36,954 nucleotides of DNA, from contig JAMPBN010000010.1 in NCBI GenBank assembly GCA_023666665.1, positions 1 through 36,954 of the forward strand. Direction: 5' to 3'. This DNA is from Prevotella sp. (GTDB lineage Bacteria; Bacteroidota; Bacteroidia; Bacteroidales; Muribaculaceae). The notes beneath the pieces were generated by a model, which was given only the letters and a program-made list of their open reading frames with translations, ran no database searches and had not been told where the DNA came from. Below, piece after piece: positions 7,680 to 27,397 of this stretch (position 1 is the first letter of the stretch; each line of letters opens with the position of its first letter). The translations under genes and the position numbers were made by a program.

Positions 7680-7714
7680 CAAATATGGCAACAATACCTT
7701 ATCGAATAAAAGAC
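7680..7714 (-). promoter_or_regulatory. Late-class promoter of the tape measure operon
   Basis: On the minus strand GTCTTTTA (7707-7714) is followed by exactly 19 bases and CATATTTG (7680-7687), one mismatch from TAnnTTTG. The box and spacing are the same as upstream of four other units in the window. Confidence 0.65.
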
Positions 7715-7723
7715 ATAAAACGC

Positions 7724-8275
7724 CTACTCAAATAGAATTTTTACAGTAAGTGCCACTCGCTTACCAACGTGAACATTTCCCACTTGCACACTTGCTATAT
7801 CATTAAAGCGAGGTGCAACTTTTTTAGCGTTTTTTTCATGTAATTGCCCGATTGCGAATCCGTCAATAGAGCAAATTTTTATGTAGTCTTTTTTCTTATT
7901 TCTATTATAGAAAATCTCAGTATCTACTTTATCAAAATCAATAATTTTGTCAAACGGATTGTAATCGCTTCCTTTATCAGGGAGTTCGTACCAATGTGCT
8001 GCTTCAGCAACGAGAGAATCTCCGGGCTTGAGTGAAGAAATCAATTTGCGGTTTTGCTCCCGGGTTGTGTTATACAAAAACACCCTCGCTACCATAGGTT
8101 CTTTGTTTAATGTCATATTTCCCTCTTCATTTTGTTTTGTTTCGTTGTGTTTATCGCGAATCGATGTTACTATGGTGTAAATTACGACAACGATAAAGAA
8201 CAAAACCGCTAATGCCGCCATAATGACAATGGCCCATATGCAGAGGTAGAAGAATACGCTAAAGAAAGTAAACAT
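7724..8275 (-). CDS. Membrane-anchored HIRAN-like domain protein
   Basis: With ATG 8275 this is a 183-residue protein. The frame stays open upstream to 8359, but that would place the start above the promoter. Residues 3-37 form one long hydrophobic segment (inner-membrane anchor). The rest is soluble and looks like a HIRAN domain: GDSLVAEA near 84, NPFDK near 106, and GFAIGQLHEKNAKKVAPRF near 140. HIRAN domains bind DNA ends or single-stranded DNA. The link is by motif shape only. It has its own promoter at 8306-8337 and sits alone between the tape measure gene and the DUF5053 cassettes, so it is probably an accessory gene. Its role is unknown. Confidence 0.6.
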   Translation of the reverse strand: MFTFFSVFFYLCIWAIVIMAALAVLFFIVVVIYTIVTSIRDKHNETKQNEEGNMTLNKEPMVARVFLYNTTREQNRKLISSLKPGDSLVAEAAHWYELPDKGSDYNPFDKIIDFDKVDTEIFYNRNKKKDYIKICSIDGFAIGQLHEKNAKKVAPRFNDIASVQVGNVHVGKRVALTVKILFE

Positions 8276-8305
8276 AACTGTTGATGGTGTAAATTGTTTA
8301 TGCCG

Positions 8306-8337
8306 CAAAGGTACAAAAAAGTTCGGATATTTACCAA
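8306..8337 (-). promoter_or_regulatory. Bacteroidota promoter for the HIRAN-like gene
   Basis: Minus-strand TACCTTTG (8306-8313) with TTGG (8334-8337) 20 bases upstream. It starts transcription about 25 bases before ATG 8275. Confidence 0.6.
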
Positions 8338-8359
8338 CCCTTAAAAATCGGATTTTCAA

Positions 8360-8550
8360 GCTAAAAGGGGGTGAATTTTCAGCTCCATTTTTAGGCGGTC
8401 TTTACGTTTGTAGGGGATTGGTTTCATTAAATGACTGACCGTTAAGCCGCTGCGACCGCGGGGAAACGGCTTGCCGTAGTCAGAAAAACGACCCCCCCGC
8501 TGCCTGAGCCTCGACTCGTTTTTTCGCCCTCGACCCCAAGCGCTATATGC
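8360..8550. other. Non-coding stretch between accessory units
   Basis: No convincing gene. A minus-strand reading frame across it has an arginine/glycine-rich low-complexity product starting inside a terminator, so I discount it. It holds a run of seven C (near 8490) and a weak AAGCCG/CGGCTT inverted repeat. I see nothing else. Confidence 0.5.
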
Positions 8551-8588
8551 AAAAGCGCCCCCGCCGGAGAGGCGGAGGCGCGGGCGCT
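8551..8588 (-). terminator. Intrinsic terminator after DUF5053 cassette 1
   Basis: On the minus strand AGCGCCC pairs with GGGCGCT, with an inner GC-rich stem, and TTTTGC follows. A near copy (9949-9985) ends the second cassette, so terminator and cassette were duplicated together. Confidence 0.75.
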
Positions 8589-8635
8589 GACCCAAAGAGA
8601 AAAGAACTTGTAATTGATAACCTAAGGGTCAACCT

Positions 8636-8860: not shown

Positions 8861-8879
8861 CTCGTTACGGGTAGGTTAA

Positions 8880-8900
8880 CCCTCCCCGATGAGGGGAGGG
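8880..8900 (-). promoter_or_regulatory. Intercistronic hairpin of cassette 1
   Basis: CCCTCCCC (8880-8887), loop GATGA, GGGGAGGG (8893-8900). It lies between the small ORF stop and the DUF5053 start. No T-run follows on the minus strand, so it looks like an attenuator, processing site or translation-control hairpin rather than a full terminator. The other two cassettes have a hairpin of different sequence in the same place. Confidence 0.6.
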
Positions 8901-8909
8901 GTTGGTTAA

Positions 8910-9047: not shown

Positions 9048-9079
9048 TGTTTGTTATTATTAGGTTATCAATTACACTG

Positions 9080-9111
9080 CAAAGTTAGTAACATTTTTCT
9101 TATTATCCAAA
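9080..9111 (-). promoter_or_regulatory. Promoter of DUF5053 cassette 1
   Basis: Minus-strand TAACTTTG (9080-9087) and TTTG (9108-9111) spaced by 20 bases, inside a TTTGGATAAT context. The same TTTGGATA start recurs at the cassette 2 and second hicA promoters. Confidence 0.75.
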
Positions 9112-9136
9112 TTTTTCAGCAATTATTTTAACAATC

Positions 9137-9892
9137 TTATCCGAGCGATTGCACAATGGCAATTTCTCGCTCGCTCAACGCGACATGCTCAGCGGCGGCA
9201 CGCTCAGCGGCGGCACGCTCAGCGGCGGCTTTTTTACTGAGCAAAAAGCCGCCGCCATATATTCCGCCCTCTGCATTATCAAGGCTTCTAACGAAAGTGC
9301 AATCCTCAGGCTGAATGTCGAAGCTTAGGCCACGGACACATATGCGCCCTAATAAAGCCGAAGAGATTACCTCATTGGGGTAAATAATTCCGCGTTTAGA
9401 TTTAGATACTTTAATCTGAGCAGCATTAACGCGCTCATAGAGGTCTCCGGCCACCATAATCTTCGGGCGACCATTGAGCAAGTTTGTCCGAAATGAGGTT
9501 CTTACCGCGGCACCATTCTCATAGGTAATATCGCAATGGCTCACGATGAATGTTTCGGCGGGGTTAGTGGACGCGAAGAGTGTCAACGATGGGGCGAAGA
9601 GGAAATACTTGATACCTCTCGCCTGATAAAAGCGACAAATCTTAGAGAGAATGGAAAAGGGGGGATTATCCAACACGATGCACCCTTCGGGGTAATCATA
9701 ATGCTCATAATCGCCGCCCGGATAGAACGGACGGACGATGGTCTTCCCCTCCAATGGGCAAATCACATCGTCAACCCACGCCTTCACAGCATCATACACG
9801 GTCGGAGGCGTATAGCAATCATCGGTAGTTTTCTTGGGCTTGAATTTCTCAACGAAGCCATCGTAGTCCTTTAGTTTTTCGTTTCGGGTCAT
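9137..9892 (-). CDS. Adenine-specific DNA methyltransferase, EcoRI-methylase-like
   Basis: With ATG 9892 this is 251 residues. The upstream extension of the frame would run through the terminator of cassette 2. Near the start is KTTDDCYTPPTVYDAV (residues 21-36), and the catalytic motif IV DNPPF is at 75-79, typical of N6-adenine methylases. The overall pattern matches phage proteins annotated as EcoRI-family adenine methyltransferases. It probably methylates phage DNA against host restriction. No restriction enzyme gene is adjacent. Residues near the C-terminus are an Ala-Glu-Arg repeat encoded by a 15-bp tandem repeat. It is driven by a promoter of the late class (9914-9948), unlike its neighbours, so it may be made during lytic growth. 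Confidence 0.82.
   Translation of the reverse strand: MTRNEKLKDYDGFVEKFKPKKTTDDCYTPPTVYDAVKAWVDDVICPLEGKTIVRPFYPGGDYEHYDYPEGCIVLDNPPFSILSKICRFYQARGIKYFLFAPSLTLFASTNPAETFIVSHCDITYENGAAVRTSFRTNLLNGRPKIMVAGDLYERVNAAQIKVSKSKRGIIYPNEVISSALLGRICVRGLSFDIQPEDCTFVRSLDNAEGGIYGGGFLLSKKAAAERAAAERAAAEHVALSEREIAIVQSLG
9187..9230. repeat. 15-bp tandem repeat inside the methyltransferase gene
   Basis: The unit GCTCAGCGGCGGCAC is present three times (the last lacks one base). It encodes an in-frame AERAA repeat near the C-terminus. Because the unit is a multiple of three, copy-number change would alter length without a frameshift. Confidence 0.85.
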
Positions 9893-9913
9893 AGCTACAT
9901 ATCGTTTTTTTTG

Positions 9914-9948
9914 CAAAGCTACAAATACCGATTTGCGTACTAAAAGAC
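9914..9948 (-). promoter_or_regulatory. Late-class promoter of the methyltransferase
   Basis: Minus strand GTCTTTTA (9941-9948), 19 bases, TAGCTTTG (9914-9921). The upstream box overlaps the T-tail of the cassette 2 terminator. Confidence 0.7.
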
Positions 9949-9985
9949 AAAAGCGCCCCCACCGTAGAGGCGGAGGCGCGGGCGC
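9949..9985 (-). terminator. Intrinsic terminator after DUF5053 cassette 2
   Basis: Minus-strand GCGCCC and GGGCGC with inner paired CCGCC segments, followed by TTTTGTCTTTT. A near duplicate of 8551-8588. Confidence 0.72.
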
Positions 9986-10027
9986 GGTTTCGCGGCAAAG
10001 TGTAGAAATCAACCAACAAAAACCGCA

Positions 10028-10258: not shown

Positions 10259-10277
10259 AATTCTTTATAGTGGATTA

Positions 10278-10437: not shown

Positions 10438-10470
10438 AAGCAGTTAATTAGTTAGTTGATTCCTACACTG

Positions 10471-10502
10471 CAAAGGTACTAATCTTTTGTATAATATCCA
10501 AA
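10471..10502 (-). promoter_or_regulatory. Promoter of DUF5053 cassette 2
   Basis: Minus-strand TACCTTTG (10471-10478), 20-base spacer, TTTG (10499-10502) in a TTTGGATATTAT context shared with cassette 1. Confidence 0.75.
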
Positions 10503-10533
10503 TTTTTCAGCATCTTTTTTCATTTTTTTTTGC

Positions 10534-10568
10534 AAAAAGCCCGCCGGGGCTTCGCAGCAGCGGCGGGC
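10534..10568 (-). terminator. Intrinsic terminator of duplicated operon, copy 1
   Basis: Minus-strand GCCCGCCG (from 10568) and CGGCGGGC (to 10539) form an 8-bp GC stem followed by TTTTTGC. Confidence 0.8.
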
Positions 10569-10614
10569 GGTGTTACATATGTAAACCTGTATGATAAAAA
10601 AATGTGTCTTCGGG

Positions 10615-10821
10615 TTAGTCGGCGGGAAGTTCCGCAAGGCAGCGGTCAATGGCCTCGCGTAGCAGCTTCAAGTCGTCGGGGTGGGTCAGCACTATCGTGC
10701 CGAGGTGGGCGTTAGGGGTGTCGGCCTTGATGACCGGGAGATGCTCAAGGTTGCCGGTGACTTCATTAAGCTGTTCTTCTACTCTTACGGTGATTTCGGG
10801 GGTGGGCATAGTTCTTTTCAT
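10615..10821 (-). CDS. Conserved 68-residue protein of the duplicated operon, copy 1
   Basis: A small soluble protein with core MPTPEITVRVEEQLNEVTGN and HPDDLKLLREAIDRCLAEL near the end. The second copy (29113-29319) has the same length and nearly the same sequence, which supports ATG 10821. A longer form could start at ATG 10884, which overlaps the stop of the membrane gene as ATGA and would add 21 residues. The second copy lacks that arrangement. The family is not recognised. It probably acts with the upstream two-TM protein, since the pair was duplicated together. Confidence 0.65.
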   Translation of the reverse strand: MKRTMPTPEITVRVEEQLNEVTGNLEHLPVIKADTPNAHLGTIVLTHPDDLKLLREAIDRCLAELPAD

Positions 10822-10880
10822 TGCAGTAAAGTTTTTAAGGGGTTGATTATTTGATTGATTTGTGTTGTCGGGCTGGGTGT

Positions 10881-11159
10881 TCATTTGCGGCCTCCTTTCT
10901 CCCGGACCAGGAAAGCCACGGCGGGAACCCACGAGGCAATCAGGGCGAGCGCCCACCATGGCGTGGGATGCAGCTCGTTCATCACGATGCTGCCAAGCAT
11001 CAGAGTGCCGCTCAGAAGCACCAGCAGCATACTGACTGCGAAGTGAGCCATATCGCTGCGGCTATTTTCGGGGGTTGATAACTTGGCTCCGGGGCGGAGT
11101 CCGTTGAGAATTACAACTTGGTCGCGGCGTCGCGTGGCCGCGCAGGTGGTTGCTTTCAT
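10881..11159 (-). CDS. Small two-helix membrane protein of the duplicated operon, copy 1
   Basis: With ATG 11159 the protein has 92 residues. An N-terminal basic, cytoplasmic-like part (ATRRRDQVVILNGLRPGAKL) precedes two hydrophobic segments, FAVSMLLVLLSGTLMLGSIV near 41-60 and WWALALIASWVPAVAFLV near 68-85. The paralogue at 29380-29643 matches over this region but not upstream, which shows that the frame open up to 11309 is not coding. The start codon directly follows an 8-base segment able to pair with the leader (11160-11364). No known family. Holin-like size is possible, but it lies far from the lysis genes. Confidence 0.65.
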   Translation of the reverse strand: MKATTCAATRRRDQVVILNGLRPGAKLSTPENSRSDMAHFAVSMLLVLLSGTLMLGSIVMNELHPTPWWALALIASWVPAVAFLVREKGGRK

Positions 11160-11364
11160 TGTAGTGCTTGTTATGAAAGTTAAACAATATGCGGAGAGAA
11201 AACAAAAACGGCTCCGCTTTCCCGTTGCACTACACTCTGAGCGAGCAGTGGGCGCATTAACGCTCCACACGGGGGTCGGAACCGTAATAATTTTGACGGC
11301 TATGGGCAAAAAAAATGCCCGCGTATGTTTGCGAGCTTCACGCCCGCTCAGTTATGTAGTGCAC
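11160..11364 (-). ncRNA. Structured leader with three mutually complementary segments, copy 1
   Basis: On the minus strand segment A (11345-11363) starts about at the transcription start. Segment B (11226-11243) pairs with A over 9 + 6 bases, closing a 138-base structure. A terminator-like stem AACGG...CCGTT plus TTTTT (11204-11226) follows B. Segment C (11160-11167, GCACTACA) touches the start codon of the membrane gene and can pair with B instead of A. This layout suits either a short RNA with a closing stem that ends at the T-run, or a switch where A-B pairing frees the start codon and B-C pairing hides it. The second copy keeps the layout with different sequences. The function is inferred. 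Confidence 0.55.
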
Positions 11365-11366
11365 CG

Positions 11367-11398
11367 CAAAGGTCGCAACAATTCCGCAAACCTGCAAG
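11367..11398 (-). promoter_or_regulatory. Promoter of the leader RNA, copy 1
   Basis: Minus-strand GACCTTTG (11367-11374; TA replaced by GA) with CTTG (11395-11398) 20 bases upstream. The whole region is identical in copy 2 (29884-29915). Confidence 0.5.
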
Positions 11399-11425
11399 CG
11401 CCGCCGCGTTAAAAAACCTTAACAA

Positions 11426-11458
11426 ACGAAAAGAGAGGCTTATCCTACGCGCCTCTCT
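11426..11458 (-). terminator. Intrinsic terminator of the 43-residue gene
   Basis: Minus-strand AGAGAGGC (11451-11458), 11-base loop, GCCTCTCT (11432-11439), then TTTTCGTTTG. Confidence 0.8.
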
Positions 11459-13448: not shown

Positions 13449-13819
13449 GTCATTTTGCGGTAGTAGAGCAGCGTGGTGAATGCCAGGGCGAGGAGCGCCC
13501 AGCCGCCGAGGGAGAGCTTGACGCGCTGCCAGGGGGTGAGCTTGGCGGGGACTTCGCGGTTAACCACCTGCGTGATGGTGTCGGTCTGCATCACCGTGTC
13601 GCGCACCACGCTGACGCGCCAGCGGTCGCGCCATCGCAGCTCCCGAATGGTGTCACCTGCCCTATCGATGATGACCGAGTCGCGCACCAGCAGGGTGTCG
13701 GAACTGTGCAACGTGTGATAAAAATCGTGTGAGTTCTCCACCGGAACGTATTCTATCGTCCGGCAAGATGATAGAAAGATAATAGATAAGAGATAAAAGA
13801 GAATAGATGCCTGTTTCAT
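13442..13819 (-). CDS. Rz/spanin-like lipoprotein
   Basis: With ATG 13819 (overlapping the lysozyme stop as ATGA) the protein has 125 residues. A lipoprotein signal (KQASILFYLLSIIFLSSC) has a lipobox LSSC and Cys at residue 19. The middle is polar and strand-rich. A hydrophobic segment (WALLALAFTTLLYY) near the C-terminus ends in KMTK. A lipid anchor plus a TM segment directly after lysozyme and holin suggests a unimolecular spanin joining the inner and outer membranes at lysis. An alternative start is ATG 13828. The role is inferred from topology and position. Confidence 0.65.
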   Translation of the reverse strand: MKQASILFYLLSIIFLSSCRTIEYVPVENSHDFYHTLHSSDTLLVRDSVIIDRAGDTIRELRWRDRWRVSVVRDTVMQTDTITQVVNREVPAKLTPWQRVKLSLGGWALLALAFTTLLYYRKMTK

Positions 13820-14259
13820 TGCTGCCATATTTTTGCCTCCTCGCTGCGACGGCGCACCAGGCCGGGAAGTCTTACGCCTTTGGCATAGACCCAGCGGGTG
13901 AACTCTGCCGGAATGGTGGGGTCGCTCGGGTTAGCTTTAACTTTGCGCCATAGGGTAGAGCTCTCGAGAGCGCCGATTCCGAGGTTGAAGGCAAAGCTCA
14001 CCAGGGCGTCAAATTGCCCCTGCGTTAGGGTTACCCCCTCGGCCATAGCATTGACCTGCTCGCCTGCATGGGCGACATCGGTCTCAAAAAACGCTTCGGC
14101 TTGAGCGCGGGTAATAGAGTGAGTTCGGGAGAAATCGTTGTCCGTATGACCGTAGCCAACGGTCCACACCCCGCCGGCACAACGATAAGGCGAGAGGCGC
14201 AAGCCCTCGTGAGACTTAATGAAATTCTTGATTGCTTCAGAAGGTTGGAGGGTCGCCAT
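13816..14259 (-). CDS. Phage lysozyme (GH24 endolysin)
   Basis: With ATG 14259 (MATLQPSEAI) the endolysin has 147 residues and cleaves peptidoglycan. The family motif is clear: HEGLRLSPYRCAGGVWTVGYGHT. The catalytic Glu is residue 18. The second position of the usual E-x8-D-x5-T triad is Cys27, and Thr33 completes it. E-(D/C)-T variants are known among GH24 endolysins. There is no signal peptide, so export needs the upstream holin. The 5' end overlaps the holin gene by 23 bases. Confidence 0.9.
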   Translation of the reverse strand: MATLQPSEAIKNFIKSHEGLRLSPYRCAGGVWTVGYGHTDNDFSRTHSITRAQAEAFFETDVAHAGEQVNAMAEGVTLTQGQFDALVSFAFNLGIGALESSTLWRKVKANPSDPTIPAEFTRWVYAKGVRLPGLVRRRSEEAKIWQQ

Positions 14260-14488
14260 TGTCTTTGTCGGATTGGGTATGTTTGGATTTATAATGGGCA
14301 TCGATGCCAAGCAGCGCCCCGGCAAAAGTCAGAGTCTCACCATAGGCCACAAGCACCGAAGAGTGAATCTCGCCGGTGGGAGGAACGTAGAACGCCGCAA
14401 TAAGCAGCGCCACACCCGCCAGGGTTAGCGCCACGCCCAACGCCACCTGCACCCTCGGCCACCGTTGCTTATTCTTATTCTGTTTCAT
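14237..14488 (-). CDS. Holin-like two-TM protein
   Basis: 83 residues. A basic start (KQNKNKQRW), TM1 about 14-34 (VALGVALTLAGVALLIAAF), a short loop with PPTGEIH, TM2 about 44-62, and a polar charged tail. Size, topology and position directly upstream of the lysozyme fit a class II holin. No family motif was recognised. Confidence 0.65.
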   Translation of the reverse strand: MKQNKNKQRWPRVQVALGVALTLAGVALLIAAFYVPPTGEIHSSVLVAYGETLTFAGALLGIDAHYKSKHTQSDKDNGDPPTF

Positions 14489-14508: not shown

Positions 14509-16629
14509 TTATGAATTTCCTTCGAGGGCGGCAACGCGGGCCGCCAGCTCCTGATGCTCTGCATATGTGCAGAGGCGTTCTTCCTGGCCGGGGCGGGTTA
14601 CTTGCCATGTGCCGTCGTCTAATGCCCGCAGACATACCCAACGAAGTTTCGGTAGCATTTGATAGTTGGTGAATGATAGCTCCATGAGGTTGTAAAACCC
14701 ACCGCCGTTGCACGTTACCTGCACGTAGCCTTGGGTAGCCTCGTTGTAAATCATGCAGCCGTATTGGGCGCAATAGGCGAGGTCGTCGGCGGTAAGGGGG
14801 GAGGTCTGGCCGTAGCCGGTGAGAGCCTTGCGGATGTCGTCTTGCGTTGATTCCTTTGTCAGGGCAAAAACATTATTGTTGGCACAGAACCCCTTGTTGG
14901 TCGCTCCATTCCATTTTGAAGTATAAACACCCGAATTATATACGCGGGTTAGGTGGTCATTATTAAAGTCGTGGGTCGAAAGACCCTTGCCGTTGACCTT
15001 ATCCACCTTGGTGGCAACCGATGCCGCCGTAGCGATGCCGTCAACCGAGCAGATAACCTTGCCCGAAGGACCGAACTTCAGCTGCAACGTCCGGTTGCCG
15101 TTAGAATCCGAAGTGCCGAACCGCAAGAAGTTTGCCGACCAAGCACCCACCGAGGGCGAATTGTTGTTGGTATTGGTGATGTTGCGCCACCATAACTCGT
15201 TGCCCTGGAGCTTCACCTGCCAGCAGCTGTTGCGCCAGTATGGCGAGGAATAAATAAATCCCGCGCCGTTGGCCGAGTCGTTGAACGGTTCGGAATAAGT
15301 AACAATCCTGGGACCCTCGGAGCGCACAAACTCCTGCGTCGCGCAATAAGCCGCAGCATCGTCAGCGCTCATTGTCCCCAAATCGGTAACAATAGTGGTG
15401 CCTCCTCCTGCCGCAGCAATCTGCTCCGCAAGTTCAGCAGCCGTTGGCAGCGCGTCGAGCTTCGCCTTGTCGCCATACGCCATTAAGCCGCTGACCGAAG
15501 TTGTGGCCGCCGGTATGGGATTGGTATAATACACGCCGCCACCGCCCGCAGGATTGTAAATACCGCGACGGAAGACCAAGGTGTTCCCGCTGGTTACTAT
15601 GCCCGTGTAAGCGGAAGTCAGCACCGCAATCTGCGAGCCCTTGTCATTGACAGAGTGAATATAATTCTGCTCTGTGCCGTTTGCAGCGCTCTGTGCCGTG
15701 GGGATGTTGGCCACCTTGAGCTTGTCCTCGTCGGTGTAGTCATTAGTCGTCAGAACCCCAAGCGGCGATAAAGTTCCGCTTGAATCTGTGCTGAATACTG
15801 TTGGGCGAACTATCTTGGGCTTTAGTTTTATGCCTTCATGAAAACAACCTGCATAGAAAATTCTATTTTGCTGCAGAACATACTCATCACCTTGGGAGAT
15901 AACACGAGGGTCGTTGATTTCCGGAGGATCATCCTGCAAGGAAATCGGGAATGTGAACCATAGACGGCCTTCCGCCCAATAATAACGAGCCTCTGCGTTT
16001 CGCCAATCGGAGGACACGAACAGGTATATCCCGGTTTTAGCGGGTTCGACATGTCTCCCGGGTGTTATGTCCCAATAAGCGTCGTCGAAGGTCAGCCAAT
16101 CTACGGTTGAGGCGGCAAGTTCTTCTGCGCTGGGGAGCTTGGCGAGCTTCATTTTTTCGTCCGGCGTGAACGTCATAATCCGATCCCAACTGTTGGGAGT
16201 GGTCCACTTAGCCCTTGTGGCTCCCAGTTCGGAGTTTAAGCGATATAGCGCCCATGATTCCGGACCGTTGTAGTTATCTTGACGGAAAGTGATATACGTG
16301 CCACCCCGCAGCGAGCCGGCACCAACCAGAGCGGGTAACATTGACAACGCCTGTGTCAGAGTGGATATTGTCGGTGCGTTGGTCAATGCATTAACATTGA
16401 TAATCGTTCCAAGGCCGTATCTAAGGTCTTCAATAACGCCGGTGGCAATCGCAAGACTACTCGACAACGCAGCTTGTTCTTCCGCTTGCTGCTGAGTGGT
16501 GGCCTCGAGGTCTTCACTTGCCGACACCACCTTATCGAGCAACGTGCCCAAACTGTTGGGAGTAATGGCACCCTTGGTATTGAGCGTCTTAAACGAGGCA
16601 ATTTCTTTTATTACGTCTGATGATTTCAT
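14509..16629 (-). CDS. Tail fibre / receptor-binding protein
   Basis: 706 residues. After a helical N-terminus (KTLNTKGAITPNSLGTLLDK) it has at least three copies of a short fibre repeat ending in a D-K-x-K-L-x-x-(L/I)-P-(S/T)-A motif: DEKMKLAKLPSAEELAA, DEDKLKVANIPTAQSAA and GDKAKLDALPTAAELAE. A beta-rich C-terminal part (about 410-690) has many Tyr, Trp and Asn, and a short coiled coil ends the protein. Such DKxKLD-LP repeats are frequent in tail fibres of Bacteroidota phages. It opens the tail fibre-lysis operon and has its own late-class promoter (16654-16688). The receptor is unknown. Confidence 0.8.
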   Translation of the reverse strand: MKSSDVIKEIASFKTLNTKGAITPNSLGTLLDKVVSASEDLEATTQQQAEEQAALSSSLAIATGVIEDLRYGLGTIINVNALTNAPTISTLTQALSMLPALVGAGSLRGGTYITFRQDNYNGPESWALYRLNSELGATRAKWTTPNSWDRIMTFTPDEKMKLAKLPSAEELAASTVDWLTFDDAYWDITPGRHVEPAKTGIYLFVSSDWRNAEARYYWAEGRLWFTFPISLQDDPPEINDPRVISQGDEYVLQQNRIFYAGCFHEGIKLKPKIVRPTVFSTDSSGTLSPLGVLTTNDYTDEDKLKVANIPTAQSAANGTEQNYIHSVNDKGSQIAVLTSAYTGIVTSGNTLVFRRGIYNPAGGGGVYYTNPIPAATTSVSGLMAYGDKAKLDALPTAAELAEQIAAAGGGTTIVTDLGTMSADDAAAYCATQEFVRSEGPRIVTYSEPFNDSANGAGFIYSSPYWRNSCWQVKLQGNELWWRNITNTNNNSPSVGAWSANFLRFGTSDSNGNRTLQLKFGPSGKVICSVDGIATAASVATKVDKVNGKGLSTHDFNNDHLTRVYNSGVYTSKWNGATNKGFCANNNVFALTKESTQDDIRKALTGYGQTSPLTADDLAYCAQYGCMIYNEATQGYVQVTCNGGGFYNLMELSFTNYQMLPKLRWVCLRALDDGTWQVTRPGQEERLCTYAEHQELAARVAALEGNS

Positions 16630-16653: not shown

Positions 16654-16688
16654 CAAAATTAATGGCAAAATACTGCGGGTTAAAAGAC
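16654..16688 (-). promoter_or_regulatory. Late-class promoter of the tail fibre-lysis operon
   Basis: Minus strand GTCTTTTA (16681-16688), 19 bases, TAATTTTG (16654-16661). The upstream box contains the stop codon of the 134-residue gene. Confidence 0.7.
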
Positions 16689-18298: not shown

Positions 18299-19138
18299 TT
18301 AAAAGAAATATCCGGCTGCGGTTTTTTGATTTTTAAACACCGGCGGATTAAAGAACTCAGCCACCGTTGAAGAATGCCATTCAGGGAAATCATCAGGGCG
18401 TTGGCGGATAAATTCAACCAGTTCCGCCAAACGGTGCTGATCAAAGCCGTCGCTCTCAAGAGCCTTTATGATTTGCGCCCTGAGGCGACGCACCAGCTCG
18501 CCGCGCTCCCGGCTGAGCTTTCCGATGAGGTTTTCGGCGCGGAGGGCATCCATCAGCTCGCGAGAGAGCCACAACGCCGCAAGAAACGCTTCGAGGTCGA
18601 TAATTTGTGTTCTTACCTTAATGTAGCGGTCCCACTTCGATTCATCTGAAGTCGGCAAGGACTTCAAAGCATTGAAGTTCGGGAACAGGGTTGCACCAAA
18701 AAACTCGGCTTGGCGAGTAGAGTTCCACCCCTCAAACTCGGGGAGCAGACGCAGCAGCATATCAATAGCTTCATCACGCAGCTCGGCCATCGAGGCCATC
18801 AGTCGGTCAACTCGCGCTTTTGAAGCAGCCACGAGGTTTTGCGTTCCAACGGTGGCAAGGCCGTTGGCCGTAAATACCACGTCGAGGCTCGGGAGCGCCT
18901 GTTTCATTGCGTCGGCTACTGCCAAACGCGCTGCAGTCAGCCACCGAATATTACCTGAGCCAAGGGCGCAGATGTCATCGAATATCTTGGAACCCGTAAA
19001 TTCGACCTGTATCCACTGCTCGGCAGCGTCGATAAACGGCACGAGTTTTTCAAACAGTGAGGTTTCTCCCTTGACCGTTATAAGCTGGTTGGGGATGAGC
19101 GCCCGAAGCGCGTCGTTATTCGTTATTAGTTTCGGCAT
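18299..19138 (-). CDS. DUF6712-like head-tail protein
   Basis: A 279-residue protein. FEKLVPFIDAAEQWIQVEFTG followed by a helical array (WLTAARLAVADAMKQALPSLD) resembles the DUF6712-type head-completion proteins of Bacteroidota phages. It starts inside the end of the portal gene (23-base overlap), as connector genes often do. The C-terminal 60 residues (HRLAELVEFIRQRPDDFPEW) are helical. Confidence 0.55.
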   Translation of the reverse strand: MPKLITNNDALRALIPNQLITVKGETSLFEKLVPFIDAAEQWIQVEFTGSKIFDDICALGSGNIRWLTAARLAVADAMKQALPSLDVVFTANGLATVGTQNLVAASKARVDRLMASMAELRDEAIDMLLRLLPEFEGWNSTRQAEFFGATLFPNFNALKSLPTSDESKWDRYIKVRTQIIDLEAFLAALWLSRELMDALRAENLIGKLSRERGELVRRLRAQIIKALESDGFDQHRLAELVEFIRQRPDDFPEWHSSTVAEFFNPPVFKNQKTAAGYFF

Positions 19139-20438
19139 AAGTGGTTACTTGTTTAGCGTCTTTGTGTTCGTCGAGAGTGGTGAGCTGCATAAATGGGCAG
19201 TCGGGATACACGCCTTTCCAGTCATTGAAGCGGATAATGATGCGGTGCACCGTAAAGAGCAAGTCGTGATAGGGCTTCTGCAGAGCCTGGGCTATGGTGT
19301 AGAGTTCGCGCTTATCCGAGCCGGAGTTATTACTCTGAGCCTTTCCGGGCACAGAACCGACCAGGTTGGAATGAACGCGCATAGTGAAGCAAATCATATT
19401 GATGGCTTCCCGGATGTCGGTTTCCCAGTCCCCACCCTCCTTGCCGGTGTCGACTTTGTGAATCTGCACGTCGTGCTGCTCGGCACCGTCGGGCGTAACG
19501 TAGAACGAGGAGAACCACGCCTTTCCGGAATTTTCCGCGCCGGTCAGGAAGTCAAGAATCTGCTGTTTTTCCTTAACGATACGTTCCTGCTGCTTGCGGC
19601 GGTCGGTGATACCCTCGGCGCGAAATATCGACTCCCAATATTTTGCCGCCACCTCTATGTGGTACTTTATTGGGGCAGAGTTCTTGAGCTTGGCTTCTTT
19701 GGCCACTCCGATAAGCTGCTTGATGTTGTACCACTTGCCCTTGAAGAGCGAGGCGTAATAAGGAATCGGGTAATAGGTGGAGTCAACCGTTGGGATGCGG
19801 CTGACTATGGCAAACTTGCGGCAGCGCGATTTCTTTGCGAGCCGGGTCTGCAGGTCAGCCCACGGCGCTGAGGGGTCGAGCAGGTCAATTACCTCAATTT
19901 CTTTGCGATTATGGCTATATCTGCGCCAGTTGGCGTAGAGAATGGACTTGATGCGGCCGGCAGAATCGGCGGGAGTGAAACGGCAATAACAGGCTTCCTT
20001 GCGGACCAGACGCACAATTTTATCGCCCGCGTCGTTGAGAATGATAACGCTGACGGCAAACCCGAAGTGCTTGAAGTCCTGGCAAACTCCGAGGAAATAG
20101 CTCGCCACATCGTTGTTTAGCAGAAATTCGTCGACAGCACTGCGCACTGCAGGGGCAGCAGCATCGCAATTATATTGCAGCCCTGAGCCGAAGCAGACCT
20201 CGGCGTTAAACATTTGGCAGGTAGAGAGGGTTTCGTCTTTCTCAATCAGATCAAGAATATTGAACGGCATCATGTTGTCACCACCCCAGGGTATATAGCT
20301 GAGGTCAGAATCAATCACCACCGGGCAGATGTCAACGTCTTCTTTAAACACCGAGGCGGAGTTGACCGAAAACAGCGCTCGCGCATCTACGCCGGGAATG
20401 TTCTCAACAGAATTATAATTTAATGTAACGTCGTGCAT
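19116..20438 (-). CDS. Portal protein
   Basis: 440 residues. An N-terminal domain has YIPWGGDNMMPFNILDLIEKD (residues 48-68), then a mixed alpha/beta core with the clip/stem-like helices near 280-300 (ITDRRKQQERIVKEKQQILDF) and VGSVPGKAQSNNSGSDKREL near 365-385. This pattern is typical of Bacteroidota phage portal proteins, the dodecameric ring through which DNA is packed. It lies downstream of the terminase and before the connector genes. Confidence 0.75.
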   Translation of the reverse strand: MHDVTLNYNSVENIPGVDARALFSVNSASVFKEDVDICPVVIDSDLSYIPWGGDNMMPFNILDLIEKDETLSTCQMFNAEVCFGSGLQYNCDAAAPAVRSAVDEFLLNNDVASYFLGVCQDFKHFGFAVSVIILNDAGDKIVRLVRKEACYCRFTPADSAGRIKSILYANWRRYSHNRKEIEVIDLLDPSAPWADLQTRLAKKSRCRKFAIVSRIPTVDSTYYPIPYYASLFKGKWYNIKQLIGVAKEAKLKNSAPIKYHIEVAAKYWESIFRAEGITDRRKQQERIVKEKQQILDFLTGAENSGKAWFSSFYVTPDGAEQHDVQIHKVDTGKEGGDWETDIREAINMICFTMRVHSNLVGSVPGKAQSNNSGSDKRELYTIAQALQKPYHDLLFTVHRIIIRFNDWKGVYPDCPFMQLTTLDEHKDAKQVTTYAETNNE

Positions 20439-20462: not shown

Positions 20463-20696
20463 TTAAAGGAATACTTCACAGTCATTGACGCTGAAAATGC
20501 AGCAATCGCGCACCCTGCGGATAGCTCCGGAGGTGAGCAGCTTGACTTCGCGCCAGCCTCCGCGAAACGAGAACGTCAGCGATATGCAGTTGCGGTAATC
20601 GAGAATCGAGCCGTCGGACTTCCACAACTTGATGTCAACAGGGTCGCCGGAGTTGAGAATGGTGCGGGCGGTAGATATATGGATTGAGCGAGCCAT
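20463..20696 (-). CDS. Small structural-operon protein, unknown function
   Basis: A 77-residue strand-rich protein (SIHISTARTILNSGDPVDIK then SLTFSFRGGWREVKLLTSGA). ATG 20696 shares its A with the stop of the preceding gene (TAATG). It lies between the 360-residue protein and the portal. Not recognised. Confidence 0.6.
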   Translation of the reverse strand: MARSIHISTARTILNSGDPVDIKLWKSDGSILDYRNCISLTFSFRGGWREVKLLTSGAIRRVRDCCIFSVNDCEVFL

Positions 20697-21778
20697 TATG
20701 CAAAACAGTCGTTAAAATGGTCAGAGAAAATTCCTCTGCGGGTGGATTGCAGACGGAGGTGGGGAACGTTTTCGGCGTAACGCCAAGTGAACTTCACGGT
20801 GTTTGGCGCGTCATCGCCATCGCTCACCTCGCAAGTGGCCTCTGTAATCAGCATCGGCTGCGGGGAACCGTTCACATAGTGAAATGCGGAGTGAGACGAA
20901 ATGAGTTGGTCCACCCAATCAGATTCATCGGATGTAAGCGGGCCAAGGGTGGCCACGTACTGCTTCATCACAGAGCGGTCAAAGAAGTATGAATGAGTGG
21001 CCAGCGCCGCCAAGGTTCGCGACACCTCGGTTTTGGTCGTAGTCAGAGTTGGCAAAAGCGCGTCTTCAAATAGATTGAAGCAGTTGTAAAAAGCAAACTT
21101 TTCCAACGAGTCGAGCGAGCGGTCAACGTAAATAGAATACTCGCGTTCGCCCAGGCTTAAATTCACAGCGAGAATTTCAACGGCAGTTTGCGGAATTTCC
21201 TGCGCCTCGGCAATATCTTCGGTCAACCCAGGAATTGAAACGTGAGTTTCACGAATGCTGTTATATCCTACAATGCTCGGAGTTCTTGACGATTGAGGCG
21301 GCGCGAATACATTCACGGAATTGTCGCGATTGTCAAGCCAATATATTTCATGCTTGGCCTTAAGCGTTTTCGCGCCTGCCGCCAGAAAATATGACAGCGA
21401 AAACTCGGCATCTGGCGAAACCCTGCGGTTAACCTGCGAGGTCAAGAAATTACTTGAGAGCCACTCGTCGAAACTTTCGGTGTCAACCTGCCGCTCGCAA
21501 TACAACACGCTGAGCGTTCGCGAAGCGCTTCCAATGGTGGCGGTATATTCGGAATATGCGAGGTTGCGATTTCGCATATGTTGTTCAATCAAGACGTTGA
21601 CATCATAAATCTCAACCTGTCCGTTAACCGGGTAGTAACTTTCTTGAAGAAGAACGTTCCCCTCGGAATCGGCCAGAGAAAAGTCAACGCTGCTCTCCCC
21701 GCTGACGTTTGCGGTGAGAACGGTGAGGAATGATGAGGGGATAACCCCGGATGGAATATTCTGAAAGTCGGTACTCAT
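20696..21778 (-). CDS. Structural protein, unknown (possible tail-associated beta protein)
   Basis: A 360-residue beta-rich protein. Its N-terminal 100 residues look like an Ig-like or beta-sandwich domain (NVSGESSVDFSLADSEGNVL, YSEYTATIGSASRTLSVLYC). Many Ser/Thr and few Lys suggest a virion surface or tail part. It is the first gene after a late-class promoter (21783-21817) and heads the portal-connector operon. No family is recognised with confidence. Confidence 0.6.
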   Translation of the reverse strand: MSTDFQNIPSGVIPSSFLTVLTANVSGESSVDFSLADSEGNVLLQESYYPVNGQVEIYDVNVLIEQHMRNRNLAYSEYTATIGSASRTLSVLYCERQVDTESFDEWLSSNFLTSQVNRRVSPDAEFSLSYFLAAGAKTLKAKHEIYWLDNRDNSVNVFAPPQSSRTPSIVGYNSIRETHVSIPGLTEDIAEAQEIPQTAVEILAVNLSLGEREYSIYVDRSLDSLEKFAFYNCFNLFEDALLPTLTTTKTEVSRTLAALATHSYFFDRSVMKQYVATLGPLTSDESDWVDQLISSHSAFHYVNGSPQPMLITEATCEVSDGDDAPNTVKFTWRYAENVPHLRLQSTRRGIFSDHFNDCFA

Positions 21779-21782
21779 ATTG

Positions 21783-21817
21783 CAAAATTAATTATATTAT
21801 CGCCCGCAATAAAAGAC
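21783..21817 (-). promoter_or_regulatory. Late-class promoter of the portal operon
   Basis: Minus strand GTCTTTTA (21810-21817), 19 bases, TAATTTTG (21783-21790). It lies between the large terminase stop and the 360-residue gene. Confidence 0.72.
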
Positions 21818-21826: not shown

Positions 21827-23452
21827 TTACACCACGCCGGAGGTGATGATTGAAAACGAATCGCGGTAAGGGAATTTTTCGCAACCGATATAGAGGGTGT
21901 CGAACGCATCGGTGCCGTCGGTGCGATGCTCCAGCAGCGCCTCTTCTGACTCAGCGAGCTTTTCGCCCGACTTATCCTTGCGGAAGCCGTTGCGGCCGCG
22001 ACTTACCCCCGCCGACTGAATGGCGAGAATCAGGTCTTCATTATTCGAGCGGTTGAAGAACGGCATCAGGCGCTGCTTGCCCGCAAAACCTTGGTTGATG
22101 AGCAGATATTTTTCATCGTGGCGCATCGGGTTGCCGATATAGACAGACTCCACCCGCCAGCCGCGTTTCTCAAACTCATGGACTATCACCCAGTGGAAAT
22201 CCTGGTCATTGACGGCGTAGTTGGAGCCAAGAGCCGTTGCGTCATAGTAAAATACCACCGTCTTGTTGCGATGGGCAGCATAGTAGCGGCAGAAATCATC
22301 GACCAAAGCGGGAATTTTGCGGTCAAACTTAACGTAGAAAGACTTCACAACATTAAGCCGCCGCTCTCTGGGCTGCCCGCAAACTATCCAGTTGATGTTG
22401 GCGTTGTAGTCCATCCCGATGCAGAGAGGCGCATCAGGGTTCACATCGGCATCGGCGCGGGCATCAAGCTGACCTGAATCGAAGTCGTAACCGAGACTGT
22501 CGAGGTACGCATTATCGTTCGCATCATATTTGTGGGCTTCTTTCATCGAGGAATAAAAGCCATCTTTGGCAATGCCTATGCGCTGGCAGAGAATGGAAGT
22601 CTGAAACGTGAGCGGCGTGAGGTCACGCTTCATCTGCTTGATATAATTTTCGCCGAGCAGCTGGAGATTTTCGATTGAGGAATATTCGCGATAGTAGACG
22701 GCCACAGAGCGCATCTTGTTGAGATTGCGGTCAAGGCGGCGCAGATAGCCCTTGAGATAGTCGGGAACCGGCTCACCCTTGGTGCTGATTTCGCGGATGC
22801 GCTGCTTGGTGCGCCAAATCTCATAGACCGTTCCCTCGATTGTGCGAATCAGCTCCTTATCCATCTTTTCGCGATAATGGAGGAACCAGGATCCTTTTTG
22901 GGTCTGCGGCATATCACTCAATATCATAACCGAGTGATTGAACGAATGCTTGCCAAACCACGACTTGATACCACCATTGGCGGGGAGAACTTCCTCCTTG
23001 AGCTTTCGGTAATCAATAAACTTGGCCTCATCAATGAGCAACCACGAAAGCGTCAGCGAGTTTGCGCTGCCGGGGCGGTCTTGCGAGATAATTACGGCGA
23101 TGCTGCCGTTATAGAACGAAACCACGTGTTCATATTCAAGCGGCGGCGTTATCGGTTTGGCAAAGGCCTTGGGCGGCTTTTTGCCAACCACGTAATGAAT
23201 ACCCTCGATGAAACCCCAGCGCTTCCACGCCGCCAACAGTCCCGGAATCGTGTTGGTCAATCCGTGTTTGAAAGTAGGGACCACGATACCGCCCGTAGAA
23301 CCGGGCATACGCTGCATATTGCGCAGCATAAACGGCGCGGCTATGGAGTCAGTCTTGCCGGTGCGTCGCCCCGCAACGATTACGGTGGTGTTGGCTCCAA
23401 TCAGCTGAGTTAGGCGCTGCGGCTTGTTAAAGTAGACTTTCTGCGGGGCCAT
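21827..23452 (-). CDS. terL: Terminase large subunit
   Basis: With ATG 23452 (MAPQKVYF) it has 541 residues. Walker A is GRRTGKT (28-34), and Walker B is LTLSWLLIDEAKF with D141-E142. The RNase-H-like nuclease domain is visible at CIGMDYNANINWIVCG and VVFYYDATALGSNY. It drives DNA packaging and cuts the concatemer. A longer frame starts at 23497, but it would overlap the small subunit gene by 71 bases; the chosen start overlaps by 26. Confidence 0.93.
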   Translation of the reverse strand: MAPQKVYFNKPQRLTQLIGANTTVIVAGRRTGKTDSIAAPFMLRNMQRMPGSTGGIVVPTFKHGLTNTIPGLLAAWKRWGFIEGIHYVVGKKPPKAFAKPITPPLEYEHVVSFYNGSIAVIISQDRPGSANSLTLSWLLIDEAKFIDYRKLKEEVLPANGGIKSWFGKHSFNHSVMILSDMPQTQKGSWFLHYREKMDKELIRTIEGTVYEIWRTKQRIREISTKGEPVPDYLKGYLRRLDRNLNKMRSVAVYYREYSSIENLQLLGENYIKQMKRDLTPLTFQTSILCQRIGIAKDGFYSSMKEAHKYDANDNAYLDSLGYDFDSGQLDARADADVNPDAPLCIGMDYNANINWIVCGQPRERRLNVVKSFYVKFDRKIPALVDDFCRYYAAHRNKTVVFYYDATALGSNYAVNDQDFHWVIVHEFEKRGWRVESVYIGNPMRHDEKYLLINQGFAGKQRLMPFFNRSNNEDLILAIQSAGVSRGRNGFRKDKSGEKLAESEEALLEHRTDGTDAFDTLYIGCEKFPYRDSFSIITSGVV

Positions 23453-24068
23453 CGGCTTTTGGAGTTTCAGGCGTTGGGAACAATGAGTCAAATTCAAGGT
23501 CTACATCCTCAAATTCAACATCGTCTATGTCAATCGTTTCGGCGCGATACTTCTTAATCATCGCGTCGATCTTTTCCTGGATGTTCGGAATCGGTTCGAT
23601 GCCGATGGCTCGAGGGTCATCAGTTGGAACAAACGGCTGTTTAACAATCAACTCGTAAGGGACGTGCTGCTCTTCCCTCTCGCCGGCCTTGTTGGTGTTG
23701 ACGTAAGTGGCGGCGACTCGCTCCATGGTGCGGGTGTCGCCCTTTTCCTTGGCCTTGCGATACGTGGCCATCAGCATTTCGTTGGCACGCCACAGGTGGA
23801 AGTCGCGTGAGGCAGTAACCATCATCGGCAGCAGCGTCTTTACAATTTTAAGGTCATCGTAAGCCGTGGTGCGGTGAATGCCCCGGGCCTGGCAGAGTTT
23901 CATTATCAGCTCGCTGTCTGACACACTCGGGTCGGCAAGATACCAATTATAGAGCTCACGGACGCGAATAACCTTATCCGCAACCGCTTCGGGATAGCGG
24001 TCGCGGAGGGTTACGGCATCGGTGAAGAGCTCCGAGCGGCAAACATCCATGGAATTGGGCATACTCAT
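23427..24068 (-). CDS. terS: Terminase small subunit-like protein
   Basis: 213 residues. VRELYNWYLADPSVSDSELI, then LCQARGIHRTTAYDDLKIVKTL, form a helix-turn-helix region (about 35-80), as in the DNA-recognition subunit of terminase. A helical oligomerisation part follows, with an acidic C-terminus (IDIDDVEFEDVDLEFDS) that may contact the large subunit. It lies directly before the large subunit and overlaps it. Confidence 0.75.
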   Translation of the reverse strand: MSMPNSMDVCRSELFTDAVTLRDRYPEAVADKVIRVRELYNWYLADPSVSDSELIMKLCQARGIHRTTAYDDLKIVKTLLPMMVTASRDFHLWRANEMLMATYRKAKEKGDTRTMERVAATYVNTNKAGEREEQHVPYELIVKQPFVPTDDPRAIGIEPIPNIQEKIDAMIKKYRAETIDIDDVEFEDVDLEFDSLFPTPETPKADGPAESLL

Positions 24069-25315: not shown

Positions 25316-25344
25316 TTTGAGAGTTAGGAGTTAGCAGTTAGTAA

Positions 25345-26340
25345 TTATTCGGCGGCGGCGGGCCATTCAAAGCCTGCGTCGGTGATGTCGAGTACCATCA
25401 GGCGCGATTTGTCAATGCTCTCGAACTGAACGCCGAAGAACATTGTGGCCACGTATGAGAGGATGAACGGCTTGTACTCCTTGACGGCTACGGATTCAAC
25501 GTCGCCCATCTGGTCGTAGCCAACGAGCATATTGCTCTTGGGTGAGATGTGGATGAAGTTGGAGCCTGCCTTATTGGTCAGAGGCACGAAGTGGAGGCGA
25601 CCATTGGAGCCTTCGAGGGTGTTCTTGTTGTACTCCGTGTTGTAGGGCAAAGCGCCGTGGAGCATCTGATAACCCTCGTTGTACATGTCAACGAGTTCCT
25701 GACTGCAATAGATATTGCAGTCTTCGGCGCGCAGATTGGGATCCATGGCAAACATGGCTTTTTTCAGCACGTCAACAACGTTGGCGGGAGTGATAGCCTT
25801 GGTAACCTTGACGTAGTTGCCCTTGTCTGCGGCGATTTCGCCGTTGGCGATTTCCTGCTCTGTGATGGTGTCGAAGCCGTCAAAGAGGTCTTTAGTGGTC
25901 TTGCCTGAGGCATTACGTTTGCCGTTCCATACGGCCTTGTTGAGGTTGCCGGAAAGTCCTTTGGCAATGAGCGCGAGAACGTGTTTTGCCGTAGGGGTCT
26001 GAATTTGGCTGTCACCCTTGGCGGCAGCAGCGCTGTGGCCCAGGAGGGTTGAAATGGCCGTGTTGGGTTCGAAGTCGGCAACCACGGAGCCGAATTGAGT
26101 GCGGAGTTCGCGGAACGCCACCTTGAGGTCGGCATTGGTGACGTTGGTGGGGTCGTAGGGTGCAAACTGTGCATCGGCGGAGGCCTGGCCTACGCGCTCG
26201 GCATACCGTATGCCGGGGCGGCCGGTCATAAACTGAAGGGTCTCGTTGATACCGAGAATGGGGAGGTAGAGCAGCTCGGGGCGGTATTTGATGGCCGCCT
26301 GCTGGTAATCCTCGGGGGTGAATTGAAATTTACCTGCCAT
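25345..26340 (-). CDS. Major capsid protein
   Basis: 331 residues. Features consistent with an HK97-type capsid protein: an N-terminal arm (KFQFTPEDYQQAAIKYRPEL), a helical spine near 125-200, ADQ/AMDPN-type loop with CNIYCSQELVDMYNEGYQ, and a C-terminal A-domain strand set (YKPFILSYVATMFFGVQFES). It sits between the prohead protease and the tail tube candidate. No cleavage site was located. Confidence 0.8.
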   Translation of the reverse strand: MAGKFQFTPEDYQQAAIKYRPELLYLPILGINETLQFMTGRPGIRYAERVGQASADAQFAPYDPTNVTNADLKVAFRELRTQFGSVVADFEPNTAISTLLGHSAAAAKGDSQIQTPTAKHVLALIAKGLSGNLNKAVWNGKRNASGKTTKDLFDGFDTITEQEIANGEIAADKGNYVKVTKAITPANVVDVLKKAMFAMDPNLRAEDCNIYCSQELVDMYNEGYQMLHGALPYNTEYNKNTLEGSNGRLHFVPLTNKAGSNFIHISPKSNMLVGYDQMGDVESVAVKEYKPFILSYVATMFFGVQFESIDKSRLMVLDITDAGFEWPAAAE

Positions 26341-26381
26341 GATGAGGTTGAAAGGTTAAGGGTTAAGGGTTGGGGTTAAGG

Positions 26382-27341
26382 TTATACCTCGGCAAAGAGC
26401 GAGGCGGCGTTGTTTACTTTTTCGCAGAATGAATCGAAAATCGTGGGTTCGTTGGCGGGCTTGGAGTCTTCAATTACCTGGGCTGAGGGAGCGGCAGGAG
26501 CCTGCGCGAGCTTTGCTTCGAGCTCGGCAATCTTGGCTTCAAGCTCGGTCACTTTGGTCTGAGCGGCCTGGGCGGCAGCAGCCTGTTCGCTGACCTGCGC
26601 GGAGAGAGCATCATACTCTTCGGCGCTGTAAGTTTTAGGAGTGGGCATAGAGTTTACGTTTTGTGGTTTGAATATTGAGGAAATCAGGTTGAAAATCTTT
26701 TCGAGGATGCTGCCGTGAGCGGCATCGGCAATCGGAACGTTAGGGAGAGGCATACCGGCTGAGAGCATTGCGGAAGCCACGGCATCGGTCAGAACCGCCT
26801 TGGGTTCCTCGGCAAAGTCGGTGACTTCATCCACCAGCCCCCACTCAAGAGCTTCTTTAGCCGAGAGCCAGCCGCCGCGACTCATCAGCGCGAGCAAGTC
26901 TTCGGCCTTGCGGTTACAGCGCTTGGCGTAAAGCCGCGCAATGTTTTGGTCAAGCTTGTCAAGGTCTTCCTTGGTCTTGCTTGCATCGGCAATCATTGCG
27001 TCAAAATCATCGGCGTTCATGCTGGCCCACCGGAAGAAGTCGACCGAGCATTTATGCGCCAGATACATTGCACCGGCATCCATGCTGATATGCTTGGCTC
27101 CAAGAGAGGCAATGGTGGCAGCCGAGGCGTTGAGGCCTACGAAGTGAACGGCAACGTCGCCGTGCTGCTTGAACGCTGCGGAGATGCTCATACCGGTGGC
27201 CAGCAAGCCGCCGAGAGAGTCAATGAGTACGTCAACGTGGGCATCGGGGTTTTCGGCGAGTACAGCATCGACCGTCGAGCGGTCAAAGTCTTCGCCGCCA
27301 ACGTAGCCCTTGAGGTGTATGTGATATGCGGTTTTTGCCAT
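26382..27341 (-). CDS. ClpP-type prohead protease fused to a scaffold-like tail
   Basis: With ATG 27341 (MAKTAYHIHLKG) it has 319 residues. The ClpP/S49-like domain has IDSLGG (41-45), the likely nucleophile Ser73 in VGLNASAATIAS and His96 in AMYLAHKC. The C-terminal 90 residues after NVNSMPTPKTYSAEEYD are a coiled coil rich in Ala, Glu and Gln, as in scaffold proteins. An internal ATG (26648) could start an 88-residue scaffold from the same frame, as in lambda C/Nu3. ATG 27365 is upstream in frame but lies inside the promoter. The gene heads the capsid-terminase operon. Confidence 0.88.
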   Translation of the reverse strand: MAKTAYHIHLKGYVGGEDFDRSTVDAVLAENPDAHVDVLIDSLGGLLATGMSISAAFKQHGDVAVHFVGLNASAATIASLGAKHISMDAGAMYLAHKCSVDFFRWASMNADDFDAMIADASKTKEDLDKLDQNIARLYAKRCNRKAEDLLALMSRGGWLSAKEALEWGLVDEVTDFAEEPKAVLTDAVASAMLSAGMPLPNVPIADAAHGSILEKIFNLISSIFKPQNVNSMPTPKTYSAEEYDALSAQVSEQAAAAQAAQTKVTELEAKIAELEAKLAQAPAAPSAQVIEDSKPANEPTIFDSFCEKVNNAASLFAEV

Positions 27342-27344
27342 AAC

Positions 27345-27373
27345 GGGTAACTTAATTTTATGCAAAGTTACCC
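27345..27373. promoter_or_regulatory. Inverted repeat over the capsid operon promoter (operator candidate)
   Basis: GGGTAACTT (27345-27353) and AAGTTACCC (27365-27373) are perfect 9-bp arms around an 11-base centre. The right arm covers the -7 box and the left arm reaches to 4 bases from ATG 27341. Since the right arm is upstream of the expected start of transcription, it is more likely a protein-binding site than an RNA hairpin. Confidence 0.6.
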
Positions 27374-27397
27374 GCTTTATCCAACCCTATAAAAGAC
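27363..27397 (-). promoter_or_regulatory. Late-class promoter of the capsid-terminase operon
   Basis: Minus strand GTCTTTTA (27390-27397), 19 bases, TAACTTTG (27363-27370). Confidence 0.75.

Follow-up and report, generated by a model that had tools for sequence, protein, structure and literature searches.

Promoters of the Bacteroides primary sigma factor are described (PMC7366714) as pairing a -7 element, TAnnTTTG, with a TTTG at -33. In the middle promoters of phage T4 (PMC6755090), the -35 element gives way to a phage-specific box, the MotA box, and the sigma factor is redirected by the phage proteins MotA and AsiA. The element studied here is a late-promoter box, with the core GTCTTT, found in the prophage of contig JAMPBN010000010.1 (Prevotella sp., Muribaculaceae; assembly GCA_023666665.1). 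The whole contig (36,954 bases; the host genome has 2.16 Mb) was analyzed and is referred to below as the window.

Compared with the Bacteroides promoter, the late promoters of the window have the same -7 element (exact in four of five, with one mismatch in the fifth) and the same overall spacing, but they carry GTCTTTY in place of the -33 TTTG and were seen mainly before phage late genes. The likeness to T4 is one of sequence layout only: the host core is kept, and a phage box at a fixed distance stands in for the upstream host element. By contrast, the genes served here are late structural genes of temperate Bacteroidales phages, the box is different, and p27961, the unannotated protein that we consider the best activator candidate, has no convincing family match in Pfam, PHROGs or NCBIfam. 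In phage Mu, a single activator, C, serves several late units through the late promoters and a DNA-modification gene through the mom promoter, and the activator gene lies just before the late block. The window likewise has a candidate activator gene before its late block, and late units together with a putative DNA-modification gene, but p27961 has no Pfam match to any activator family, and both the box and the host differ. No description of a late-gene switch in Bacteroidales phages was found in open PubMed Central papers (subscription journals and preprints were not covered).

Two promoter classes in the window

The sequence-only reading had placed five copies of an eight-letter box, GTCTTTTA, in the window, each 19 nucleotides (nt) before TAnnTTTG and just upstream of a late unit or a methyltransferase gene. 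All five were found as described and none elsewhere in the window, and each directly precedes a gene:

27390..27397, minus strand: late box GTCTTTTA before the protease/capsid unit
27363..27370, minus strand: -7 element TAACTTTG of the protease promoter
21810..21817, minus strand: late box before the p20696-portal unit
21783..21790, minus strand: -7 element TAATTTTG of the p20696 promoter, with the ATG of p20696 4 nt beyond
16681..16688, minus strand: late box before the fibre-lysis unit
16654..16661, minus strand: -7 element TAATTTTG of the fibre promoter
9941..9948, minus strand: late box before the methylase-like gene
9914..9921, minus strand: -7 element TAGCTTTG of the methylase promoter
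7707..7714, minus strand: late box before the tape measure gene
7680..7687, minus strand: -7 element CATATTTG of the tape measure promoter, one mismatch to TAnnTTTG

The string TAAAAGAC occurred five times in the window, always at these places (shuffled sequences: mean 1.16, with five copies reached in 1 of 100). The complete arrangement of box, 19 nt and TAnnTTTG gave four exact copies and one copy with a single mismatch, all on the minus strand, against a mean of 0.01 and a maximum of 1 in shuffles. The distance from the -7 element to the gene was 19 nt for the tape measure gene, 21 nt for the methylase-like gene (ATG at 9892), 24 nt for the fibre gene, 4 nt for p20696 (ATG at 21778) and 21 nt for the protease (ATG at 27341).

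When hexamers were counted at every fixed offset from all TAnnTTTG sites of the window, with no preselected motif, GTCTTT (offset 21), AATTTG (offset 20) and CTTTTA tied for first place with four copies each; CTTTTA overlaps GTCTTT, and AATTTG is the ordinary -33 element. Since both GTCTTT and AATTTG rank first at fixed offsets, promoters of two kinds occur in the window: those with the ordinary -33 element and those with the box. None of the four exact late promoters has a TTTG at -33 (gap 17-22). Among the 15 remaining TAnnTTTG sites of the minus strand, five do (30638, 13349, 10471 and 9080 at gap 20; 31392 at gap 19). The early and accessory promoters had been said to carry TTTG where the late ones carry the box; this holds for those five sites but not for all early promoters, since 28498, 8306 and 11775 are among those without it. 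The G/C-rich and then T-rich stretch reported upstream of most boxes corresponds, at 9941, to an intrinsic-terminator-like hairpin (9979-9953) whose T tail enters the box, but at 27390 only a weak terminator-like match was found, and relatives keep no more than a weak T preference 4-6 nt upstream (about 0.4 bits).

The genes behind the boxes, and the terminase gene, are as follows:

26382..27341, minus strand: head maturation protease, which opens the capsid unit
25345..26340, minus strand: 331-amino-acid capsid-unit gene, conserved in its place behind the protease, with homologues in relatives; putative capsid role
21827..23497, minus strand: terminase large subunit
20696..21778, minus strand: p20696, first gene of the portal unit, no assigned function
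19116..20438, minus strand: portal-like protein, weak PHROG match, behind p20696 in the unit that follows box 21810
14509..16629, minus strand: fibre-like protein (probable, from its place), first gene of the fibre-lysis unit
13816..14325, minus strand: endolysin
9137..9892, minus strand: methylase-like protein (phrog_21498, of unknown function in PHROGs; an NPPF motif was seen by eye)
3326..7660, minus strand: tail tape measure protein

Together with an integrase, a LuxR-type regulator and a primase-like gene, these head, tail and lysis genes identify the element, as judged from its gene content, as a temperate tailed phage.

Distribution of the box in Bacteroidales phages

A check proposed by the sequence-only reading, a motif search upstream of late genes in related Bacteroidales phages, was carried out with loci chosen independently of the motif. 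The best 80 of 310 IMG/VR virus loci, 79 of them with a start codon, were fetched by protease similarity alone, and the best 80 of 263 Bacteroidales genome loci were obtained with the same bait. In each, the -7 element nearest the start codon was located and the octamer at the fixed offset from it was read. The box stood at the exact offset in 72 of the 79 virus protease promoters (62 of 69 distinct upstream sequences). The octamers were GTCTTTTC in 42 loci, GTCTTTTA in 13, GTCTTTTT in seven, GTCTTTTG in five, GTCTTTCC in three and GTATTTTC in two; three loci had another octamer and four had no -7 element. When a TTCG core was allowed, in a pattern that itself fixes part of the box, the count rose to 78 of 79, and the sole miss has only 78 nt of upstream sequence. 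The genome loci gave 68 exact boxes out of 80 and ten with the TTCG core (78 of 80 together); one of the two remaining loci has 15 nt of upstream sequence. Sixteen distinct upstream sequences were common to the virus and genome sets, and some loci are near-copies. The named records belong to Muribaculaceae, Prevotellaceae, Bacteroidaceae, Paludibacteraceae, Porphyromonadaceae and other Bacteroidales.

The spacing proved to be rigid. On the late strand of the 160 loci (2.43 Mb), GTCTTT preceded TAnnTTTG by 21 nt in 239 cases, by 20 in six, by 22 in seven and by 19 in one (165, 6, 3 and 1 distinct sites, respectively), and never at spacings of 12-18 or 23-29. The opposite strand had none at spacing 21 and up to six at other spacings. 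The scrambled words TTTCTG, TTCTTG and CTGTTT occurred 0, 1 and 0 times at 21 nt on the late strand, although repeats gave two of these words counts of 13 and 14 at a different spacing. All 164 distinct 35-mers from these loci lay on the late strand, 154 of them with the start of an open reading frame (ORF) within about 125 nt. Moreover, the box was present in all 37 protease phage contigs of at least 28 kb, with 176 copies in sum, 169 of them on the main strand of their contig, and one copy of the control.

The eighth base of the box is free (C 38, A 28, T 9 and G 5 in 80 dereplicated promoters), and the eight-letter form GTCTTTTA was rejected in favor of the core GTCTTT: all five window copies do have that form, but its final A lies outside the general motif. 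At the place of the G of the -33 element (gap 20), G never occurred in the 72 box promoters; five of these, those with GTCTTTTG, have a TTTG at gap 19, one base nearer. Aligned on the -7 element, GTCTTTTN places TTTT or TTTC at the position of the gap-20 TTTG.

Within the host family, the exact motif was found in 59 of 198 genomes, with 133 copies, summed over rows, against ten for the reversed control. Around the fetched matches 59 distinct sites were cut out, and 55 of them have an ORF of at least 50 amino acids behind the box. A window protein was matched by 37 of these ORFs, namely 36 late-unit proteins (protease 12, p20696 seven, tape measure five, portal four, p24072 four, fibre three and p17068 one) and one p27961; the other 18 match no window protein, and some are very short and possibly due to chance. 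Gene orders vary, and in some phages the box stands before the portal gene or p24072, where the window has none. This variation from unit to unit indicates that the box is gained or lost one unit at a time.

The box is thus far more widespread than had been claimed, occurring in a large group of gut Bacteroidales phages, and we hold it as nearly certain that GTCTTT at its fixed spacing defines a late-promoter class of these phages. The inclusion of the methylase in the late regulon, by contrast, is local and was seen only in the window: in the five other genomes of the 198 that have a methylase of this family, no box was found near the gene (one of these genes starts at a contig edge), and general membership of the methylase is unsupported.

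Candidate readers of the box

In the mechanism that we favor, the late promoter would depend on an activator, and the box would form the upstream half of that promoter. The ordinary -7 TAnnTTTG would be read by host RNA polymerase carrying the primary sigma factor, while GTCTTT(T/C)N at an exact distance would replace the needed -33 TTTG and leave the promoter weak. A phage protein bound to the box would then hold the polymerase at the promoter, presumably through contact with sigma region 4, and p27961, which has a probable promoter of its own shortly before the capsid unit, would most likely be that protein. The replaced -33 element, the rigid spacing, the unchanged -7 element and the T4-middle layout argue for activator dependence. 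The initial proposal, that the late promoters form a class with a trans-acting factor dedicated to it, is strongly supported by the likeness of box, spacing and gene classes across Bacteroidales phages, and we consider it highly probable that a dedicated phage activator reads the class. The features concerned are:

27961..28446, minus strand: p27961, unannotated, 161 amino acids, basic helical C-terminus, best activator candidate (ORF to 28455 if a TTG start is used)
28498..28505, minus strand: -7 element TAACTTTG in the probable promoter of p27961, which lacks a late box
27455..27886, minus strand: p27455, unannotated, second conserved gene of the cassette, co-factor or structural protein
35593..36267, minus strand: LuxR/GerE-type regulator (phrog_10300), not associated with the box when tested

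The regulator named in the sequence-only reading was the LuxR-type protein, with relatives in numerous phages. It shares a contig with the box in the window phage, in six other prophage contigs and in some virus contigs. Among 80 virus loci found with a LuxR-type protein, those of 4-21 kb seldom reach late genes, and the whole contigs (10-115 kb) of 64 were searched instead; the 16 omitted are contigs of 4-12 kb. Boxes occurred in seven of the 64 (6 of 45 and 1 of 19; controls 0), exactly the seven that carry p27961, and the other 57, amounting to 2.9 Mb in sum, have neither box nor p27961. In addition, the LuxR profile matched none of the 37 box-bearing protease contigs, while three of three positive controls matched in a repeat. 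These results contradict the LuxR-type protein as reader of the box; the candidate was rejected and its binding to the box is very improbable.

A host factor, or an alternative sigma factor made in infection or stress and exploited by phages, could also read the box. The -7 element is the host's own and the phages have hosts in many Bacteroidales families, both of which would suit such a factor, but 139 of the 198 host-family genomes have no exact copy of the motif and the 57 box-less LuxR contigs just mentioned are phage contigs too. We judge this explanation improbable.

By contrast with the LuxR-type gene, the box is closely associated with the phage type that carries p27961. This protein was encoded in 36 of the 37 box-bearing protease contigs, the 37th of which ends 1.6 kb from its protease, and in 113 of the 115 protease loci with more than 2.5 kb upstream; the exceptions are L488, without p27961 within 10 kb, and L419, which is short. 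Where the stretch before the capsid unit exceeded 7.5 kb, only p27961 and p27455 were near-universal, each occurring in 58 of 59 non-redundant loci. Of the other plus-strand families, the most frequent was present in 39 loci and the primase-like one in 27; two minus-strand families, in 43 and 33 loci, were taken as shadow ORFs of these same genes. Box-like matches before p27961 itself were found in 13 of 109 loci (seven loci too near a contig end were omitted). A two-tier scheme, in which GTCTTTTG would mark hybrid promoters of p27961, was unsupported (2 of 8 vs 6 of 104, Fisher p 0.10).

The structural model of p27961 (predicted local distance difference test score, pLDDT, 90) has C-terminal helices at residues 81-107, 113-123 and 130-160, predicted to form a basic three-helix bundle with a net charge of +8. 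Pfam searches with 13 members of the family gave no match to the Mor/C family at E up to 1, the best match among PDB sequences had an E of 0.05 and was to unrelated proteins, and fold comparison returned nothing significant. In tblastn against annotated phages, p27961 had no match (E up to 1e-3), and the protease matched one unannotated fragment (E up to 1e-20).

A first pattern scan of IMG/VR listed at least 120 loci on single-copy contigs, most of them taken as chance. Among the 120 listed, two (L097 and L104) had relatives of p27961, 18% and 24% identical to the window protein, respectively, and none had a LuxR or p27455 match. A distant group with a diverged module was assembled from 19 contigs with p27961 relatives of L104, plus L097; the contigs of L394, L395 and L097 had also been found by the motif scan. 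GTC-N-TT, 19 nt and an octamer ending in TTG preceded the protease-like gene in 20 of 20 (15 distinct), although only five of these octamers fit TAnnTTTG. The boxes were GTCCTT in 14, GTCTTT in three and GTCATT in three, near-identical, cases.

This group bears on a further explanation, in which p27455 would be the reader of the box, either alone or jointly with p27961; in the latter case p27961 would be the DNA-binding activator and p27455 the sigma-remodelling partner, like MotA and AsiA of T4. p27455 occurs as universally as p27961, in the same cassette, and 133 of the 160 loci have both. The distant group, however, keeps the box while the p27455 slot of 16 of its loci holds a protein unrelated to p27455 by hhalign (probability 0.6 percent), even if a short stretch of similar residues in that protein leaves remote kinship open. 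p27455 is also neutral (isoelectric point 6.8), whereas p27961 is basic (9.0), and a PHROG search gave no useful family for p27455 or for p20696. Since GTC-N-TT and p27961 persist together while the neighbor changes, the distant group mildly favors p27961, and a part for p27455 appears unlikely, if worth keeping in view.

The identification of p27961 is weakened by the fact that its gene adjoins its supposed targets. It might instead be a packaging protein (small terminase) or another structural protein that travels with the late module, with some other protein as the real activator. The usual place of a small terminase gene, however, next to the large subunit gene, is taken by the gene of p23427, which overlaps the beginning of the large subunit gene, and p27961 is separated from the latter by six genes; this alternative seems to us decidedly unlikely. 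On balance p27961 is the probable, though by no means secure, activator, and the whole explanation, an activator-dependent late promoter read by p27961, is given a probability of about 0.6.

Bacteroidales are abundant in animal guts and have many prophages. If the explanation is right, the box and one small unannotated gene would allow late operons, and hence prophage activity, to be predicted from sequence, a phage-controlled expression system for Bacteroidales hosts could be built, and the redirection of a Bacteroidota sigma factor could be put to the test. More tentatively, at slightly less than even odds, p27961 may found a new activator family whose members usurp the contact that the primary sigma factor of Bacteroidota makes at -33; on this reading one late code (GTC-Y-TT-Y, a 19-nt gap and TAnnTTTG) would be common to temperate Bacteroidales phages of a very large group and would, in some of them, extend to a small, structured RNA made late from the opposite strand.

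Additional features of the promoters and the element

Seven of the 37 long protease contigs (L500-L506) have one GTCTTTTG box each on the strand opposite the late genes, with no convincing phage ORF behind it. About 100 nt with several hairpins follow, ending in a T run in four (L500, L503, L504 and L505). Compared with shuffles, three of five such stretches folded better than all (z -3.0, -4.2 and -5.5) and two did not (z -0.3 and -0.7), and an Rfam search with those of six loci gave no match. The stretch may correspond to a small late RNA.

In much of the distant group (L395-L399, L402-L406 and L412), a palindrome, GGTAATTACC, lies in the late-promoter spacer before a p24072-like gene or the small gene preceding it, and is possibly an operator. 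The start of p20696-type genes lies 4-5 nt past the -7 element in the window, in five of seven host-family loci and in five of seven sites of the protease-baited loci; their mRNA may be leaderless.

Three accessory-gene promoters of the window (9073-9129, 10464-10520 and 30631-30687) have in common a longer repeat around AATTTGGATA at -33. Two near-identical terminator-like hairpins were seen at 9953-9979 and 8555-8581, the first running on into the late box of the methylase-like gene (9941-9948). A block of about 0.9 kb is present twice (10533-11435 and 29030-29952), with parts 90-100% identical, and an exact 17-base direct repeat is common to both contig ends (1-17 and 36938-36954), a possible sign of a circular form or an attachment core. 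Finally, the LuxR-type gene is often followed by a primase-like gene, and four cysteines of its product (C118, C142, C148 and C155), located before the GerE domain and invariant in 24 sequences, suggest a metal site.

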